Part shown: piece after piece, positions 2,650 to 8,832 of the stretch
How the letters are laid out: each line of letters begins with the position of its first letter
Position numbering within the stretch: the first letter of the stretch is position 1
Assembly (NCBI GenBank): GCA_026391235.1
Contig: JAPLDV010000590.1
Span: forward strand, 1-9,346
Source of the DNA: Bacteroidia bacterium
GTDB lineage: Bacteria; Bacteroidota; Bacteroidia; Bacteroidales; UBA12481
Reading direction: 5' to 3'
Length of the DNA stretch: 9,346 bases
Notes under the pieces: generated by a model
Told to the model about the DNA's origin: nothing
What the model saw: only the letters and a program-made list of their open reading frames with translations
Database searches by the model: none
Position numbers and translations under genes: made by a program

Positions 2650-3512
<863 letters not shown>

Positions 3513-3552: not shown

Positions 3553-3589
3553 GGTTAACAACCTAAAAAACAAGGTTAATTAAGGTTAA
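3553..3589 (+). promoter_or_regulatory. Three helically phased GGTTAA repeats: candidate response-regulator operator
   Basis: GGTTAA occurs at 3553-3558, 3574-3579 and 3584-3589, with start-to-start spacings of 21 and 10 bp, so all three face the same side of the helix. The last two extend to AAGGTTAAT. OmpR/PhoB-type regulators typically bind direct repeats spaced by about one helical turn. The cluster lies between the divergent GLPGLI and kinase genes, about 30 bp upstream of the kinase -7 box. That this is the site for the adjacent regulator is inference. Confidence 0.5.
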
Positions 3590-3618
3590 TGTCTGACATT
3601 GATTCAATCCGGCACCCC

Positions 3619-3626
3619 TATATTTG
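3619..3626 (+). promoter_or_regulatory. -7 promoter element TATATTTG for the two-component operon
   Basis: TATATTTG is an exact TAnnTTTG match 16 bp upstream of the ATG at 3643. A TTG at 3599-3601 is a possible -33 element, but the 17-bp spacer is shorter than usual. The implied transcription start near 3630-3633 is downstream of the ATG at 3589, which supports 3643 as the true kinase start. Confidence 0.55.
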
Positions 3627-3642
3627 TGCCGGAGATATTATT

Positions 3643-5190
3643 ATGGTGCATTTTACGAAAATACGATGGATACCCATCCTGATGATACTCAGCCAGGTGA
3701 TGCTGGCCGGATTTGTTGCCTATTGGCTGAAAAGCCAGTATGACGATGAGAAGGGACTTCTACGGGAGGAGCTTTCACGAATGTATGATGAATCACGCAA
3801 CCAGGTGATTGACAGCCTTTTATTTAATCGTGTTGTCGAACCTGCCTTGAACGATTCCGTAACCATCACCATGATGACAGGTGAAAAGATCGATACTGCC
3901 AATCATAAAGTAGTCCGGAGCATGGCTGGCGGAAAATTTTTAGCCGGAAACGATTCCTGTGAAAGTACAATTGTTGCTATTTCAATGCCGGATTCTTTAG
4001 CAGGCAATAGGATCCGGTCAGGTGCAACATTTATCCAAAGCAATAATAAGCAGGATATACTCATCAGGAGTGTCAAGCTATTTATAAACCACTCCAGTGA
4101 TTCGGCTACCAGCAGGGTTGGCTTCCCTTTATTTCTTCCCGGCAACCCGGATACCGCGCTTTTCAAAAAGGTTTATGACGAGCGGATCGCACAGAAGAAG
4201 TATGGGATTGTGGTAGGGTGGAGTTCGGATAGCGTGAAGGATTTTGTAGGGGCGAACACGCGGTCGCCCGTTATTGTAGGGGCGAACCCGCAGTCGCCCG
4301 AAACAGATAAAAGAAAACCGGGGATGCATTTCAGCAGTGTTTTTCCCGACAATTTACCTCAGGTACAGATTAAGCACACTTTTCCTTACCTGATCAAACG
4401 GATCGGTGCTCAGATTCTTTTTGCAATGATCTTATTGCTACTGACCGGTTCGGCTTTCTTTTTCACCAACCGGAGCTTAAAAAGGCAGATGATGCTCAAC
4501 AGTTTGCGGAATGATTTCGTGAGCAATATCACCCATGAATTACGGACGCCGGTGTCGACCGTAAAAGTCGCACTGGAGGCCCTGAAAACATTCGATAAGG
4601 TGAACAACCCTGCCATCACGCGCGAATATCTCGATATGGCCGGACAGGAGATGAACCGGCTCGATCAGCTCATCAGTAAAGTCCTCGATCAATCGCTGAT
4701 CGGGGAGCAAAAGCAGGTAATTCAACCACAGCTTTCCGATTTAAATCATCTGATCGAAAATATTTTGCTTTCACTTAAGCCCCGGCTGGATGCCCGAAAT
4801 GCAACGGTAAAATTTGATTCTTCGGAAATATCCGGATCTGTTATGGTTGACCCTTTGCATTTTCAGGGAGTATTGATCAACCTGATTGATAATAGCTTAA
4901 AATATGGACCGGAAAATCCGGAAATCGAGATCAGGCTTTGGCAGGATGATGGGTCGGCGTTTATCGAAGTGAGCGATAACGGCCCCGGCGTACCCATAGA
5001 ATACCTCGGTCGGGTTTTCGATAAATTCTTCCGGGTTCCTACCGGCAACACGCATAATATTAAAGGGTACGGCCTGGGTCTGAGTTTCGCCGCTCTTGTA
5101 ATGAAGCAGCATCACGGATCGATATCGGTTAAAAACCTGGATCAGGGCGGCTGTGCATTCACGCTCAGATTCCCTCTTCCATCATCATGA
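3643..5190 (+). CDS. Membrane sensor histidine kinase (RprX-like architecture)
   Basis: The protein is 515 residues from the ATG at 3643. The frame is open back to an ATG at 3589, but that start lies upstream of the best promoter and adds 18 residues ahead of the first membrane segment. Transmembrane helix 1 is at about 9-28, a periplasmic sensor region of about 225 residues follows, and helix 2 is at about 254-276. The HisKA domain has FVSNITHELRTP with the phospho-accepting His298. The ATPase domain shows the N box (Asn417 in LINLIDNSLKYG), G1 box DNGPGVP (Asp445), F box FDKFFRVP and G2 box GYGLGLS (from Gly475). No HAMP domain is evident. It autophosphorylates and should pass phosphate to the regulator encoded next, with which it overlaps by ATGA. 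The stimulus is unknown. The periplasmic domain contains two repeated VGANxxSP segments encoded by a hairpin repeat at 4244-4300. Confidence 0.93.
   Translation: MVHFTKIRWIPILMILSQVMLAGFVAYWLKSQYDDEKGLLREELSRMYDESRNQVIDSLLFNRVVEPALNDSVTITMMTGEKIDTANHKVVRSMAGGKFLAGNDSCESTIVAISMPDSLAGNRIRSGATFIQSNNKQDILIRSVKLFINHSSDSATSRVGFPLFLPGNPDTALFKKVYDERIAQKKYGIVVGWSSDSVKDFVGANTRSPVIVGANPQSPETDKRKPGMHFSSVFPDNLPQVQIKHTFPYLIKRIGAQILFAMILLLLTGSAFFFTNRSLKRQMMLNSLRNDFVSNITHELRTPVSTVKVALEALKTFDKVNNPAITREYLDMAGQEMNRLDQLISKVLDQSLIGEQKQVIQPQLSDLNHLIENILLSLKPRLDARNATVKFDSSEISGSVMVDPLHFQGVLINLIDNSLKYGPENPEIEIRLWQDDGSAFIEVSDNGPGVPIEYLGRVFDKFFRVPTGNTHNIKGYGLGLSFAALVMKQHHGSISVKNLDQGGCAFTLRFPLPSS
4244..4300 (+). repeat. 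Two tandem GTAGGGG hairpin units inserted in frame in the kinase sensor domain
   Basis: Units at 4244-4270 and 4274-4300 are 27 bp, repeat with a 30-bp period and match at 25 of 27 positions. Each contains the inverted arms GGGCGA and TCGCCC around an 8-nt loop (4250-4255/4264-4269 and 4280-4285/4294-4299). The 30-bp period keeps the frame, so they encode VGANTRSP and VGANPQSP just before the second membrane helix. The segment is more GC-rich and Gly/Pro/Ser-rich than its surroundings, as expected for an inserted repeat rather than native sensor sequence. Confidence 0.85.
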
Positions 5191-5876
5191 AAACAAAGAT
5201 CCTGTATGTTGAGGATGAGCTTTTCCTGGGAAAGATTGTCAAGGAAACACTCGAAGATCAGGGCTTTGAGGTTGCCTGGGAAACCGACGGGGCAAGGGTC
5301 ATGAACCGCTTCAACAGCTTCTTTCCGGGCATTTGCGTGGTTGATATCATGCTGCCCAATATCGATGGGTATTCCCTGTGCCGCCAGATCAGGGGTCTCT
5401 ACACCACCCTGCCGATCATCTTTTTAACGGCAAAAGTTGAAACGGCCGACCTGGTAAAAGGATTTGAAGCCGGCGGCACCGATTATATCCGGAAACCATT
5501 CAGCATGGAAGAGTTGATCGTCCGGATCAAAAATCAGCTGAATCTGAAAAATTCCAATGGATCTCAGCCGGTAACCGGCGACCTTGAGATAATACTGGGT
5601 ACCTACCGGTTTTATCCCGGACGGTATGAACTCTTTGCACCCTCCGGAGCCCATAAATTATCGCAGCGCGACATGCAGATTCTCAGCATGCTATGCTCCA
5701 ACCGCAACCGGGTAACCGACCGCAGGGAACTGCTCCTTTCTGTTTGGGGAGATGACTCCTTTTTCAACTCCCGCAATCTCGATGTGTATATCCGCAAACT
5801 CCGCACACTGCTTTCCGAAGACCCCGCCATTGAGATACAGACGATCAAGGGTAAGGGGTATCTGTTCATAAGCTGA
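5187..5876 (+). CDS. OmpR/PhoB-family response regulator (RprY-like)
   Basis: This 229-residue protein is a typical full-length OmpR-family regulator. The receiver domain (about 1-122) has the acidic pair Glu9-Asp10, the phospho-acceptor Asp53 in VVDIMLPNIDGY, the switch Thr81 in IIFLTA and Lys103 in RKPFSMEEL. The C-terminal winged-helix DNA-binding domain (about 132-229) includes LSQRDMQILSMLCSNRNRV, then a recognition region NSRNLDVYIRKLRTLL and the final hairpin IQTIKGKGYLF. Its ATG overlaps the kinase stop as ATGA, so the two are translationally coupled. The kinase next to it is the obvious partner. The likely targets are the divergent GLPGLI/beta-barrel genes and its own operon (inference from position). 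All active-site residues are present. Confidence 0.95.
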   Translation: MKTKILYVEDELFLGKIVKETLEDQGFEVAWETDGARVMNRFNSFFPGICVVDIMLPNIDGYSLCRQIRGLYTTLPIIFLTAKVETADLVKGFEAGGTDYIRKPFSMEELIVRIKNQLNLKNSNGSQPVTGDLEIILGTYRFYPGRYELFAPSGAHKLSQRDMQILSMLCSNRNRVTDRRELLLSVWGDDSFFNSRNLDVYIRKLRTLLSEDPAIEIQTIKGKGYLFIS

Positions 5877-5896
5877 AAATTAAATTCTTCCGTTTT

Positions 5897-5986
5897 CTCT
5901 GTGTAACTCTGTGGTTCTCTGTGTACCTTTGTGTCAGTTCTTATTCTTACACAGAAATTCACAGAGAATCACAGAGTTACACAGAA
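5897..5986. repeat. 90-bp inverted repeat made of eight 10-bp CTCTGTG units
   Basis: The left arm (5897-5936) is four consecutive 10-bp units, CTCTGTGTAA, CTCTGTGGTT, CTCTGTGTAC and CTTTGTGTCA. A 10-bp centre (5937-5946) follows, then four inverted units (5947-5986) whose complement reads TTCTGTGTAA, CTCTGTGAAT, CTCTGTGATT and TTCTGTGTAA, listed from the centre outward. Arms pair at 33 of 40 positions, with 24 of 25 in the outer block 5899-5923/5960-5984. It encodes no protein and shows no terminal T-tract. Possible roles are an interspersed non-autonomous element, a protein-binding array or a transcript-stabilising 3' hairpin. Confidence 0.9.
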
Positions 5987-5990
5987 AAAA

Positions 5991-6036
5991 ATGAAGGCTA
6001 AAATGCCCTTCATCAAAAAAAACAAGTCGGTTTTTT
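5991..6036 (+). terminator. Possible weak terminator hairpins after the two-component operon
   Basis: ATGAAGG (5991-5997) pairs with CCTTCAT (6007-6013) around a 9-nt loop. A second hairpin follows: AAAAAAC (6017-6023) and GTTTTTT (6030-6036) around a 6-nt loop, then CCTTTTTCC. The second could end plus-strand transcripts from the regulator. On the minus strand the first stem is followed by seven T residues, which is the better intrinsic-terminator shape, but no minus-strand gene is seen to need it. Confidence 0.4.
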
Positions 6037-6101: not shown

Positions 6102-6118
6102 TTCACTTATTTAGTGAA
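6102..6118. promoter_or_regulatory. Palindromic operator TTCACT-N5-AGTGAA, probable HigA site
   Basis: A perfect 6-bp inverted repeat with a 5-bp AT centre (TATTT) lies 17 bp upstream of the -7 box of the toxin-antitoxin locus. Adding the flanking four bases gives a near-perfect extended dyad. HigA antitoxins usually repress their own promoter by binding such a dyad as dimers, so this is the likely autoregulatory site (inference). Confidence 0.55.
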
Positions 6119-6134
6119 TTTTTGTTATTAGTAT

Positions 6135-6142
6135 TAACTTTG
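6135..6142 (+). promoter_or_regulatory. -7 promoter element TAACTTTG of the toxin-antitoxin locus
   Basis: TAACTTTG is an exact TAnnTTTG match, 13 bp upstream of the ATG of the toxin remnant. No good -33 element is seen at 19-21 bp; the closest TTTG (6121-6124) is only 10 bp away. The promoter probably still drives the antitoxin. Confidence 0.55.
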
Positions 6143-6155
6143 CAAAGACGATTTT

Positions 6156-6324
6156 ATGGAAATTGAATTTGGCCAGGATTATTTAAGAGAACTTTATTAT
6201 TATGGGCGAGCAAAAAGTAAAAAGCACAGGTTCCAGCCTGACTATCAGCCGGAAAGACGTTTCAGGATCCATCACAATAACAATTTGCACCTTACTGAGA
6301 ATCAGCAATCACTACCTTAATTAA
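6156..6324 (+). pseudogene. Degraded HigB/RelE-type toxin gene: internal deletion plus frameshift
   Basis: From the ATG at 6156 the first 28 residues (MEIEFGQDYLRELYYYGRAK followed by SKKHRFQP) look like the N-terminus of the Bacteroidota HigB/RelE-like toxin that precedes HigA. The frame then becomes nonsense and stops at 6318-6320 after 54 residues. The next frame, however, encodes SITITICTLLRISNHYLN and ends TAA at 6322-6324; this resembles the usual toxin C-terminus (ITICxxxELSNHY pattern). These toxins are usually about 90-110 residues, so roughly 40-55 central residues are lost and the two ends are now out of frame. Gene order (toxin first), promoter and operator are all as expected for an intact HigBA locus. 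The family patterns come from memory and no alignment was run. It is almost certainly inactive as an RNase. Confidence 0.75.
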
Positions 6325-6340
6325 TTGAAATCGGAATCAA

Positions 6341-6661
6341 ATGGAACAGATACTTATACCGTTTATAGCAACTCATCCTGGAATAGTATTAAAGGATGAA
6401 CTTTCTGCCAGGCGAATTACTCAGCGCAAATTTGCCGAAATGATCGAAATGCAGCCAACTATGCTAAATGAAATCATTCGCGGAAAGCGGCCGATAACAG
6501 CTTCAATTGCATTATCACTGGAAAAAGCACTGGAAATCTCCGCTGAGTTCTGGATCAGGTTTCAGTACCAATATGAGCTTGATGTTGTCCGCCAGAAAGA
6601 GCGAACCATTCTGCGTCTTCAAAAGATTGAAGAAAAGAAACTTGCGGGAATGAAAAAATAA
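6341..6661 (+). CDS. higA: HigA-family antitoxin, XRE-type DNA-binding protein (toxin partner decayed)
   Basis: The 106-residue protein has the HigA hallmark near its start, ATHPGIVLKDELSARRITQ (residues 10-28), followed by a helix-turn-helix at about 27-60 with the MLNEIIRGKRPIT recognition region. The conserved EISAEFWIRFQYQYELD segment comes next, and a charged C-terminal helix (about 80-106) may mediate contact with partner or dimer. It normally neutralises the HigB mRNA-cleaving toxin and represses its own promoter. It starts 16 bp after the former toxin stop (6322-6324). Length and motifs look complete, with no internal damage, so it has outlived its toxin. It may now act as a solitary regulator or protect against a related toxin elsewhere (inference). 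Confidence 0.92.
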   Translation: MEQILIPFIATHPGIVLKDELSARRITQRKFAEMIEMQPTMLNEIIRGKRPITASIALSLEKALEISAEFWIRFQYQYELDVVRQKERTILRLQKIEEKKLAGMKK

Positions 6662-6723: not shown

Positions 6724-8832
6724 ATGAAAAGACTATTTATCACTCTGATCATTTTAATTTCAATTTCCTTACATCAGTTCGGGCAATCGGGGTGGTTCTG
6801 GCTGAACCCCAAACCCGACGGAAACACCCTGAATGATGTAGCCATCTTTGGCGATGGCTATGCCGTTGCGGTCGGTTATATGGGACTGATTCTCCGGTCA
6901 ACTGACAATGGCGAAACCTGGTCGAAAATTTACAGTGGGACAACCAGTATTTTATGGGGGGTGTCGATGCATGAAAATGGAACCGGCTGGATTGTCGGTG
7001 TACCCGGATCGGTACTGAAAACTACCGATAACGGCCTGACCTGGGTAAAACAGGCCACCGGAAATTACTACAGCTATTACGCTGTCTTCACCAGCGACGG
7101 CGTAAATTGTATGATAGGCGGATATCCGGGCACAGTCTATACTTCTAATGATGGAGGAACAAACTGGACCACCCATCCTACTAATTCAACAAAAACGATA
7201 AGATGCCTGTATTCCGATGGAAAAGGATTGATCTATACCGGGCATGACGGGGGGGTTATCCAAAGATCCCCTGATAACGGAGCTACCTGGGTTACCCTGC
7301 CATCTCCGATAACGACAACCATAAACGACATTAAGTTTTTAGACAGCCTGGGTATTGCAGTCAGCACCGAAGGCAAAATACTCAGGACTGTCGACTACGG
7401 AACAACATGGACCCTGATAACCGCTACAAAACCTTATGAACTGAATACAATTTGCATCACTGATCGCAATAAAGTATTGATTATGGGGATCGCGGGGTAC
7501 ATACTGAATTCCACCGACGGGGGTACTTCATTCACAGCCACGGGTGCTGGTTTCTTTTATCATCCGATTAATGCAGTCGTGGTAAAGCCGAATGCTTTTT
7601 ATCTGGCAGTCGGGAATTACGGAACCATCACCAAGTCACAAGACAGGCTCGACTGGGTGCTTAAAACCAATGGCTTTGTTGGAATAATTTATGACATCTG
7701 GTTTACCGATACCCTGCAGGGATTTGCTGCCGGGGATTACTATGGCATCCTTAAAACAATTGATGGCGGTGCGACCTGGAAAGTGAAAAACCAATCCGTG
7801 TTTTACCTGGAATACAGTAATCTTTTCTTTGTGAGCAGAACTACCGGTTTTGCCGCGACAAGCAGCAACCTGTTTAAGACCAGCGATAGCGGCGAAAATT
7901 GGACCAAAGTATTTAGCGCATCTTCAGTTCCTGTATTGTACGGCTATGTGCAAAGGATTTTTTTTCTGAATCCGAAGATGGGCTGGATTGTTACAGACCA
8001 AGGAAGTACATATAAAACATCTGATTTCGGGATAACCTGGGAGTATCACCCGAGCGGAGTGACAAAAGTCCTGACTGATGTTGTGTTTATTGATACTTTA
8101 AGGGGGTTTATCACAGGCTGGGGCGGAACAATCCTCAAGACCATTGATGGAGGATCTTCCTGGACACAGATCAGTAATTCCATTACCCAAGACATGACTT
8201 CCCTGCATGCTTTTAACATGGATAGCATAATTGTTTGCGGGTTTTACGGGAAAGTATACAGGACATCCGATGGCGGTTTGATCTGGAATTCCGTCAGCAT
8301 GCCACCCAGCATAACATATAACAATTTCAGGAAGATCAGGTTTTTGAATGATTCCATCGGATGGTTGGTTGGTGACCAGGGAGCACTTTTAAAGACAAAA
8401 GATGGTGGAAAAAGCTGGTCCTTACTGCCCACACATGTAGGACACGATCTCTTTACCTTTTCCTTCACGGATGAGAATCATGGCTGGGCTGCAGGCCTCG
8501 GTGGAACCATCATAAAAACAATCGACGGTGGTGGCATTTCATCGGTTGAAACCATCGTAAACAAGAAAACCGGTTTCAGGTTAAATCAAAACTATCCGAA
8601 TCCATTTGATCAAAAAACAACATTAACATACTATCTGCCAAAAAGATCGAAGGTTAAACTGGATATCTATAATGTGCTCGGATCTAAAATGGCAACCATC
8701 CTGGAAAGCGAAAAAGACGCCGGCGAGCATCAGGTAACTTTTGATGGCAGCGGTTTACCGGCCGGCATTTACTTCTGCCGGTACACCTGGGGAGGGCCTC
8801 AAAGCTATTCTATCCGGCTGCTGAAAAACTGA
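6724..8832 (+). CDS. Secreted Ycf48/BNR-like beta-propeller protein with T9SS type A sorting domain
   Basis: This 702-residue protein starts with a signal peptide (about 1-20, MKRLFITLIILISISLHQFG). Residues about 25-605 carry about 14 repeats of roughly 42 residues with the consensus GxxxKTxDGGxTW, for example GSVLKTTDNGLTW, GTILKTIDGGSSW and GALLKTKDGGKSW. Each is preceded by a GWxVG or GFAAG strand. This pattern matches Ycf48/BNR-like beta-propeller repeats, and 14 repeats could make two seven-bladed propellers (inference). Residues about 616-702 are a T9SS type A sorting domain: FRLNQNYPNPF, LPKRSKVKLDIYNVLG, AGEHQVTFDGSGLPAGIYF. The protein should therefore cross the outer membrane by type IX secretion and be attached or released there. 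No catalytic motif is evident; a binding or scaffold role is possible but unknown. Confidence 0.93.
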   Translation: MKRLFITLIILISISLHQFGQSGWFWLNPKPDGNTLNDVAIFGDGYAVAVGYMGLILRSTDNGETWSKIYSGTTSILWGVSMHENGTGWIVGVPGSVLKTTDNGLTWVKQATGNYYSYYAVFTSDGVNCMIGGYPGTVYTSNDGGTNWTTHPTNSTKTIRCLYSDGKGLIYTGHDGGVIQRSPDNGATWVTLPSPITTTINDIKFLDSLGIAVSTEGKILRTVDYGTTWTLITATKPYELNTICITDRNKVLIMGIAGYILNSTDGGTSFTATGAGFFYHPINAVVVKPNAFYLAVGNYGTITKSQDRLDWVLKTNGFVGIIYDIWFTDTLQGFAAGDYYGILKTIDGGATWKVKNQSVFYLEYSNLFFVSRTTGFAATSSNLFKTSDSGENWTKVFSASSVPVLYGYVQRIFFLNPKMGWIVTDQGSTYKTSDFGITWEYHPSGVTKVLTDVVFIDTLRGFITGWGGTILKTIDGGSSWTQISNSITQDMTSLHAFNMDSIIVCGFYGKVYRTSDGGLIWNSVSMPPSITYNNFRKIRFLNDSIGWLVGDQGALLKTKDGGKSWSLLPTHVGHDLFTFSFTDENHGWAAGLGGTIIKTIDGGGISSVETIVNKKTGFRLNQNYPNPFDQKTTLTYYLPKRSKVKLDIYNVLGSKMATILESEKDAGEHQVTFDGSGLPAGIYFCRYTWGGPQSYSIRLLKN

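Follow-up and report, generated by a model that had tools for sequence, protein, structure and literature searches.

Toxin loss in a chromosomal HigBA-type locus of a Bacteroidia bacterium, with the HigA antitoxin left intact

An intact HigA-type antitoxin gene directly behind the remains of its toxin raises the question of how the toxin was lost and whether the antitoxin left behind has a use of its own. We analysed such a locus in a stretch of 9,346 nucleotides (contig JAPLDV010000590.1), here called the window. On its + strand, a sensor histidine kinase gene (3589..5190) is followed by a response regulator gene (5187..5876), a short open frame (6156-6320), higA (6341..6661) and a gene for a Ycf48-type repeat protein with a T9SS sorting tail (6724..8832). 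The best NCBIfam model for the regulator was RprY, with a score below the cut-off of that model, and Rfam returned no family at the gathering threshold.

Several repeats were also observed around these genes. Between the regulator and higBA, a long inverted repeat (5887-5996) has two 51-nt arms that are 82% complementary and separated by a spacer of 8 nt; it is made of ~10-nt CTCTGTG-type units and could be a terminator or a REP-like element. A 48-nt tandem duplication with 95% likeness (3311-3407) doubles 16 residues in a GLPGLI-family gene, the homologue of which at the related locus L047 carries a single copy of the unit, as judged by eye. A 30-nt tandem repeat (4244-4300) lies within the sensor kinase gene, and none was seen by eye in the L047 homologue.

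The antitoxin gene encodes 106 amino acids with an HTH_3 domain (PF01381, 5.8e-8). It belongs to the HigA family TIGR02607 (7e-20, 70.7 bits against a curated cut-off of 47.7), and a sequence search showed that it resembles solved HigA chains, the best at 1e-9. The gene lies directly downstream of higB, of which only a remnant (6156-6324) is present there, and a scan of genome contigs with HigA gave a single locus. HigA proteins in the clade of the window have about 105 residues, whereas 22 of the 30 best HigA matches (L002-L031) are open frames of 364-381 residues, composed of an HTH and a long C-terminal part; that part looked metallopeptidase-like by eye in the further locus L001.

Both ends of the toxin were recognized upstream of higA. 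A HigB profile made from 48 relatives matched only two pieces of the whole window on both strands at E<=0.01, namely model positions 1-29 at 6156-6242 and 83-105 at 6247-6315, and the E-values in a smaller set of pieces were 1.6e-9 and 4.4e-4, respectively. In a tblastn search against 32 sequences, residues 1-28 of intact HigB matched 6156-6239 with 64% identity (E 6.6e-8), and residues 92-105 matched 6274-6315 in another frame with 8 of 14 residues, a match that was not significant alone (E 0.098). Codons 1-28 are thus placed at 6156..6239, and alignment with eight intact relatives extended the C-terminal remnant, SRKDVSGSITITICTLLRISNHYLN, of 25-26 residues, back to about residue 82, so that about codons 82-107 and the old stop occupy 6244..6324 on the + strand in a different frame. 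The raw frame of the N-terminal remnant continues past codon 28 in the wrong register and ends with the stop at 6318-6320, 54 codons from 6156. Neither the two pieces nor the short frames upstream of higA reached a curated toxin family in Pfam or NCBIfam, and their sole Pfam match was an unrelated domain (E 0.038, below the cut-off). Chance likeness of both ends to HigB was rejected in view of their order, their spacing, their adjacency to higA and the profile E-values.

The eight intact relatives are each 107 residues long, align without gaps and take 324 nt with the stop. As the window has only 169 nt from the ATG to the old higB stop, ~155 nt are missing, corresponding to residues ~29-81, about the middle half of the toxin, and the reading frame is broken. 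These results bear out the original prediction that the first 28 residues and a C-terminal piece of the toxin are still legible in different frames, the latter piece being longer than first reported; the predicted loss of about 40-55 central residues also held and was slightly conservative. Aligned with HigB toxins, 6156-6324 showed two HigB-like ends in the right order with the middle absent. With residues about 29-81 gone and the frame broken, the window toxin does not encode a complete HigB/RelE-type fold, nor does the window hold a working type II toxin-antitoxin system with both partners intact. The intact higBA locus of the relative L046 offered a possible source of the deletion in two copies of ATCAG, and a simple exchange between them was rejected, as they lie 153 nt apart and in frame, against ~155 nt missing. 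The endpoint regions of L046 have no common exact repeat longer than 5 nt.

The family of the lost toxin was examined through its intact counterparts. HigB of L046 (107 aa) matched PF05015 at 2.5e-6 with 28.3 bits, above the cut-off of 27, and P0019 and P0024, which are nearer counterparts of the window toxin, scored 19.3 and 19.0 bits, below that cut-off. NCBIfam gave no match for any of these three proteins. A sequence search of solved structures with intact HigB returned nothing up to E 1; the fold was therefore predicted and searched. The top five PDB matches of the AlphaFold model (pLDDT 88.6) were all chains of Proteus vulgaris HigB, with TM-scores of 0.69-0.72 over the query and 13-14% identity. 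Through the Pfam match of the L046 homologue and the likeness of its predicted model to P. vulgaris HigB, the window remnants can be assigned to HigB. Mapped onto this model, the deletion covers the helices 28-43 and 47-50, the strands 58-60 and 69-72 and most of 77-82, so that three of the six strands would be lost. The invariant residues Y58, E59 and R78 fall within the deleted part, and the lost arginine presumably belongs to the active site.

Upstream of the toxin start, a palindromic operator, TTCACTTATTTAGTGAA (6102..6118, + strand), begins 54 nt before the higB start codon and carries the motif TTCAC-N5..9-GTGAA; its 17 nt are identical to those of L046 and L001. The motif was found within 110 nt before higB at 34 of the 64 loci whose HigB start could be read (32 of 61 when the window and two duplicates are left out), 42-68 nt upstream of the gene, as opposed to a mean of 0.03 and at most 1 in single-base shuffles. 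HigA may bind this palindrome. A promoter box, TAACTTTG (6135..6142, + strand), is of the TAnnTTTG type, which we take to be the Bacteroidota promoter consensus. Such a box occurs no more than 45 nt from higB at 60 of the 64 loci (against a mean of 3.0 and a maximum of 10 after shuffling), and the box alone is not rare, with six on the + strand of the window. An upstream promoter box was not found at the spacing expected for it, the TTTG at 6121 being off that spacing. The promoter region of the window has TAACTTTGCAAAG in common with that of L046. The antitoxin, operator and promoter had been described as intact, and the family score of HigA, the operator shared with L046 and L001 and the recurrence of the box all agree with this description.

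Comparison of the same site in relatives showed where an intact module is found. At L046 (genome G789), an intact higB (1161-1484) and a short higA whose product is 70% identical to that of the window lie behind the equivalent kinase and regulator pair; the regulator is 85.5% identical to that of the window, and the end of the kinase, present on this locus as a fragment, is 86% identical over 93 residues. Judged by eye, the gene after higBA at L046 resembles the L047 helicase gene. Homologues of the kinase also stand at the equivalent place at L047 and L048. At L048 (G311), the regulator is followed after about 125 nt by a Ycf48-type gene and then by the gene that comes after it in the window, with no higBA between regulator and Ycf48-type gene. 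The regulator at L047 (G023) is the closest of those compared (87%) and is followed by a gene that looked transposase-like by eye. In the simplest reading, higBA already occupied the site when the lineages of the window and of L046 parted, and the other lineages either lost it or never received it.

Among closer HigA relatives, P0002, P0003 and P0004 (78-82% identical to the window HigA) could be paired with an intact HigB by the equal size of the longest contig (1277, 3798 and 7589 bases). For P0001, the closest (92%, 3 contigs), and for P0005 (76%, on a contig of 5.4 Mb), no HigB partner of matching contig size was detected among the 56 matches listed; this absence is judged from contig sizes in a search of limited sensitivity. 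If these two share or repeat the toxin loss, the retention of HigA would go back further than one would conclude from the window by itself. In another close relative, P0008, the end of HigA is truncated and frame-shifted like that of a decaying gene, on a contig of only 1326 bases.

The age of the loss was approached by comparing the remnants with intact toxins. With P0019 and P0024, respectively, the N-terminal remnant has 26 and 24 of its 28 residues in common, and the C-terminal remnant 15 and 17 of 25. Over all seven intact relatives used (P0017 and P0019-P0024), the numbers of residues shared with the remnants are 19-26 of 28 and 9-17 of 25; among the relatives themselves they are 17-27 of 28 and 10-18 of 25. 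The remnants have thus not clearly diverged from intact homologues more than those have from each other. Given this comparable level of similarity, the deletion is probably recent, and the divergence of the remnants seems to have accrued mostly while the toxin was under constraint. Relative to L046, dN/dS was about 0.07 for the N-terminal remnant (28 codons) and about 0.19 for the C-terminal one (26 codons), 0.06 for the regulator and 0.13 for higA (104 codons), all with near-saturated dS, and the higA interval includes time before the deletion. The estimate of recency draws on 28 + 26 codons with near-saturated synonymous sites and has no intact pair of equal distance as a DNA control. The window HigA shows no deviation at the columns that are invariant in eight relatives, a conservation compatible with recent loss and with continued selection alike. 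If the deletion is recent, an intact HigA is expected without any new function. The suggestion that the antitoxin serves a separate purpose was therefore not upheld, since a recent deletion suffices.

Toxin damage beside an intact antitoxin was also seen elsewhere. Of 393 genomes sampled from the order to which G001 belongs, 140 had a HigA match at 1e-5. The loci sampled were all 72 places among the matches listed, to about E 1e-15, with weaker places mostly left out, a further 6, 1 and 4 loci from the phylum, class and family samples, and 16 regions chosen from the HigB list, partly for a flagged stop (L101), which do not form an unbiased sample. Fourteen loci were dropped before the count, namely the duplicates L001, L033, L036 and L037, and L038-L045, L047 and L048, which had been fetched for other genes. 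The profile classification gave 99 rows, which are not independent loci. Both genes were intact by coverage in 63 rows (61 loci), HigA was intact with a partial HigB in 15, and HigA stood without any HigB match in 12.

Ten of the 15 rows with partial HigB, the window among them, were read as a damaged toxin beside an intact HigA, a count to which draft genomes may contribute false frame shifts. HigB is frame-shifted at L005, L032, L071, L072 and L086, has a nonsense codon at L101 (picked because its stop was flagged), has lost its front at L063 and L078, and carries an internal deletion in the window and at L087, the latter in one genome with L063. The remaining five are L019, at a contig end, L025, L053 and L062, divergent but open, and L095, unclear, divergent and near a contig end. 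L075, listed among the 63 intact rows, has no start codon and leaves the first 14 positions unmatched, and may be an eleventh damaged toxin. Among the 99 rows, none clearly combined an intact toxin with a damaged antitoxin. The nearest to this reverse case, which speaks against a strict rule that the toxin dies first, was L073, where HigA is split over two frames and HigB, intact by coverage, matches the model from position 13 onwards; of the remaining rows that have a complete HigB but lack a complete HigA, L096 and L097 lie at contig ends and L100 has a distant HigA match. L087 keeps roughly 30 codons at the front and a few at the end; the stretch that it lacks has ATTGT at each end in the relative L106, and at the 3' end in L107 as printed. 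The likeness between the window and L087 is noted, and two cases prove nothing. At L005 (1299-1353), L032 (1309-1357), P0027 and P0057, HigB leaves its frame in a shared A-rich part, at about residues 50-66, for which slippage, phase variation and sequencing error are candidates.

Taken together, the window very probably holds a chromosomal type II HigBA operon, probably ancestral with the L046 lineage, in which a recent out-of-frame deletion of ~155 nt removed the toxin core and left HigA. The remnants, the deletion, the intact higA, the conserved operator and the intact copy that a relative carries at this site can all be seen in the compared sequences; the recency, the autorepression and the absence of a current function are what we infer. 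With two HigB pieces, the core gone, an intact HigA and an intact higBA at the same site in L046, the original prediction of a toxin-antitoxin locus after toxin loss was confirmed. HigA would most likely still be made from the same operon mRNA, dimerise, bind the palindrome at 6102-6118 and repress its own promoter. As no toxin would be made, the module should have no addiction or growth-arrest effect and would be on its way to loss. Toxin loss in this HigBA module is real, probably recent and ordinary.

It is unlikely, though worth weighing, that HigA is instead an orphan antitoxin retained under selection, either against the addiction imposed by a related plasmid or phage HigB or as a regulator. 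Its unchanged invariant columns and the partnerless P0001 would fit such a role. Furthermore, related full-length HigB proteins were found on viral contigs (8 of 22 loci, 40-47% identity), on two Tenacibaculum plasmids (45%) and in one phage record (39%), and six plasmid records held a HigB relative when HigB of L001 was the query. These occurrences make a separate function possible, and nothing requires it. However, recent loss accounts for an intact HigA without selection, the decaying HigA end of P0008 speaks against retention, and the missing partners are read from contig sizes with limited sensitivity. A viral scan with HigA gave 33 stretches that matched the pattern, none of which encoded a relative, and a search of phage DNA found nothing.

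An assembly or sequencing artefact, with a full higB in the organism and the deletion produced by misassembly, is very improbable, as the endpoint regions in L046 contain no shared exact repeat of more than 5 nt as a substrate for collapse, and a similar internal deletion occurs at L087 in another genome of the order sample. We give hardly any credence to the idea that the 54-codon frame (6156-6320) encodes a functional mini-protein or acts as a translated leader that keeps higA translation coupled. Its stop is 4 nt away from that of the former higB and precedes the start of higA by 20 nt, and L087 independently retains some 30 codons of the front and a few at the end; however, no relative of the raw frame was found among length-matched candidates sharing three words, and L063 and L078 lack the front of higB while higA is still intact. 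It also seems very improbable that deletions gutting HigB repeatedly spare the promoter, the ~30 first codons and the last codons, as in the window and L087, with the leader needed for HigA and HigA serving as standing immunity against plasmid and phage HigB. The preferred reading remains the recent loss of the toxin core from an ancestral HigBA operon.

The window locus is a clean snapshot of the death of a toxin-antitoxin module, with the toxin first, an internal deletion, and the antitoxin and operator intact. It has the toxin-first order, a TIGR02607 HigA, the HigB fold and the upstream palindromic motif in common with HigBA type II modules, of which P. vulgaris HigB/HigA is a solved example. 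As opposed to these modules, its toxin core is deleted, and its intact relatives match PF05015 weakly (28.3, 19.3 and 19.0 bits; cut-off 27). Orphan antitoxins arising from toxin loss have already been described, and decay of this kind is common; the locus adds an example rather than a principle. One report cites up to 2253 orphan antitoxins in Klebsiella, a high percentage of them judged to be degraded from canonical systems and about 20% genuine (PMC7354431). One marine collection is given as holding 3099, with HigA-1 among the prevalent ones, in another (PMC12654330), and orphan antitoxins are described as abundant in Escherichia coli, with anti-addiction and regulation as proposed roles, in a third (PMC10790755). 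Should sister species share the deletion with higA conserved, the locus would offer a good natural test of the anti-addiction idea. The window resembles the orphan antitoxins of degraded systems in Klebsiella, E. coli and the marine surveys in having an antitoxin without a working partner, and differs from them in that the remains of the toxin can still be read and that a relative is known to carry an intact copy at the same site. A phage HigA-like gene similar to HigA3 (Rv3183) of Mycobacterium tuberculosis (PMC7354431) is likewise described as an apparent orphan; the passage on it gives no HigB-like frame on either side and mentions no legible toxin remnant, whereas the window has one.
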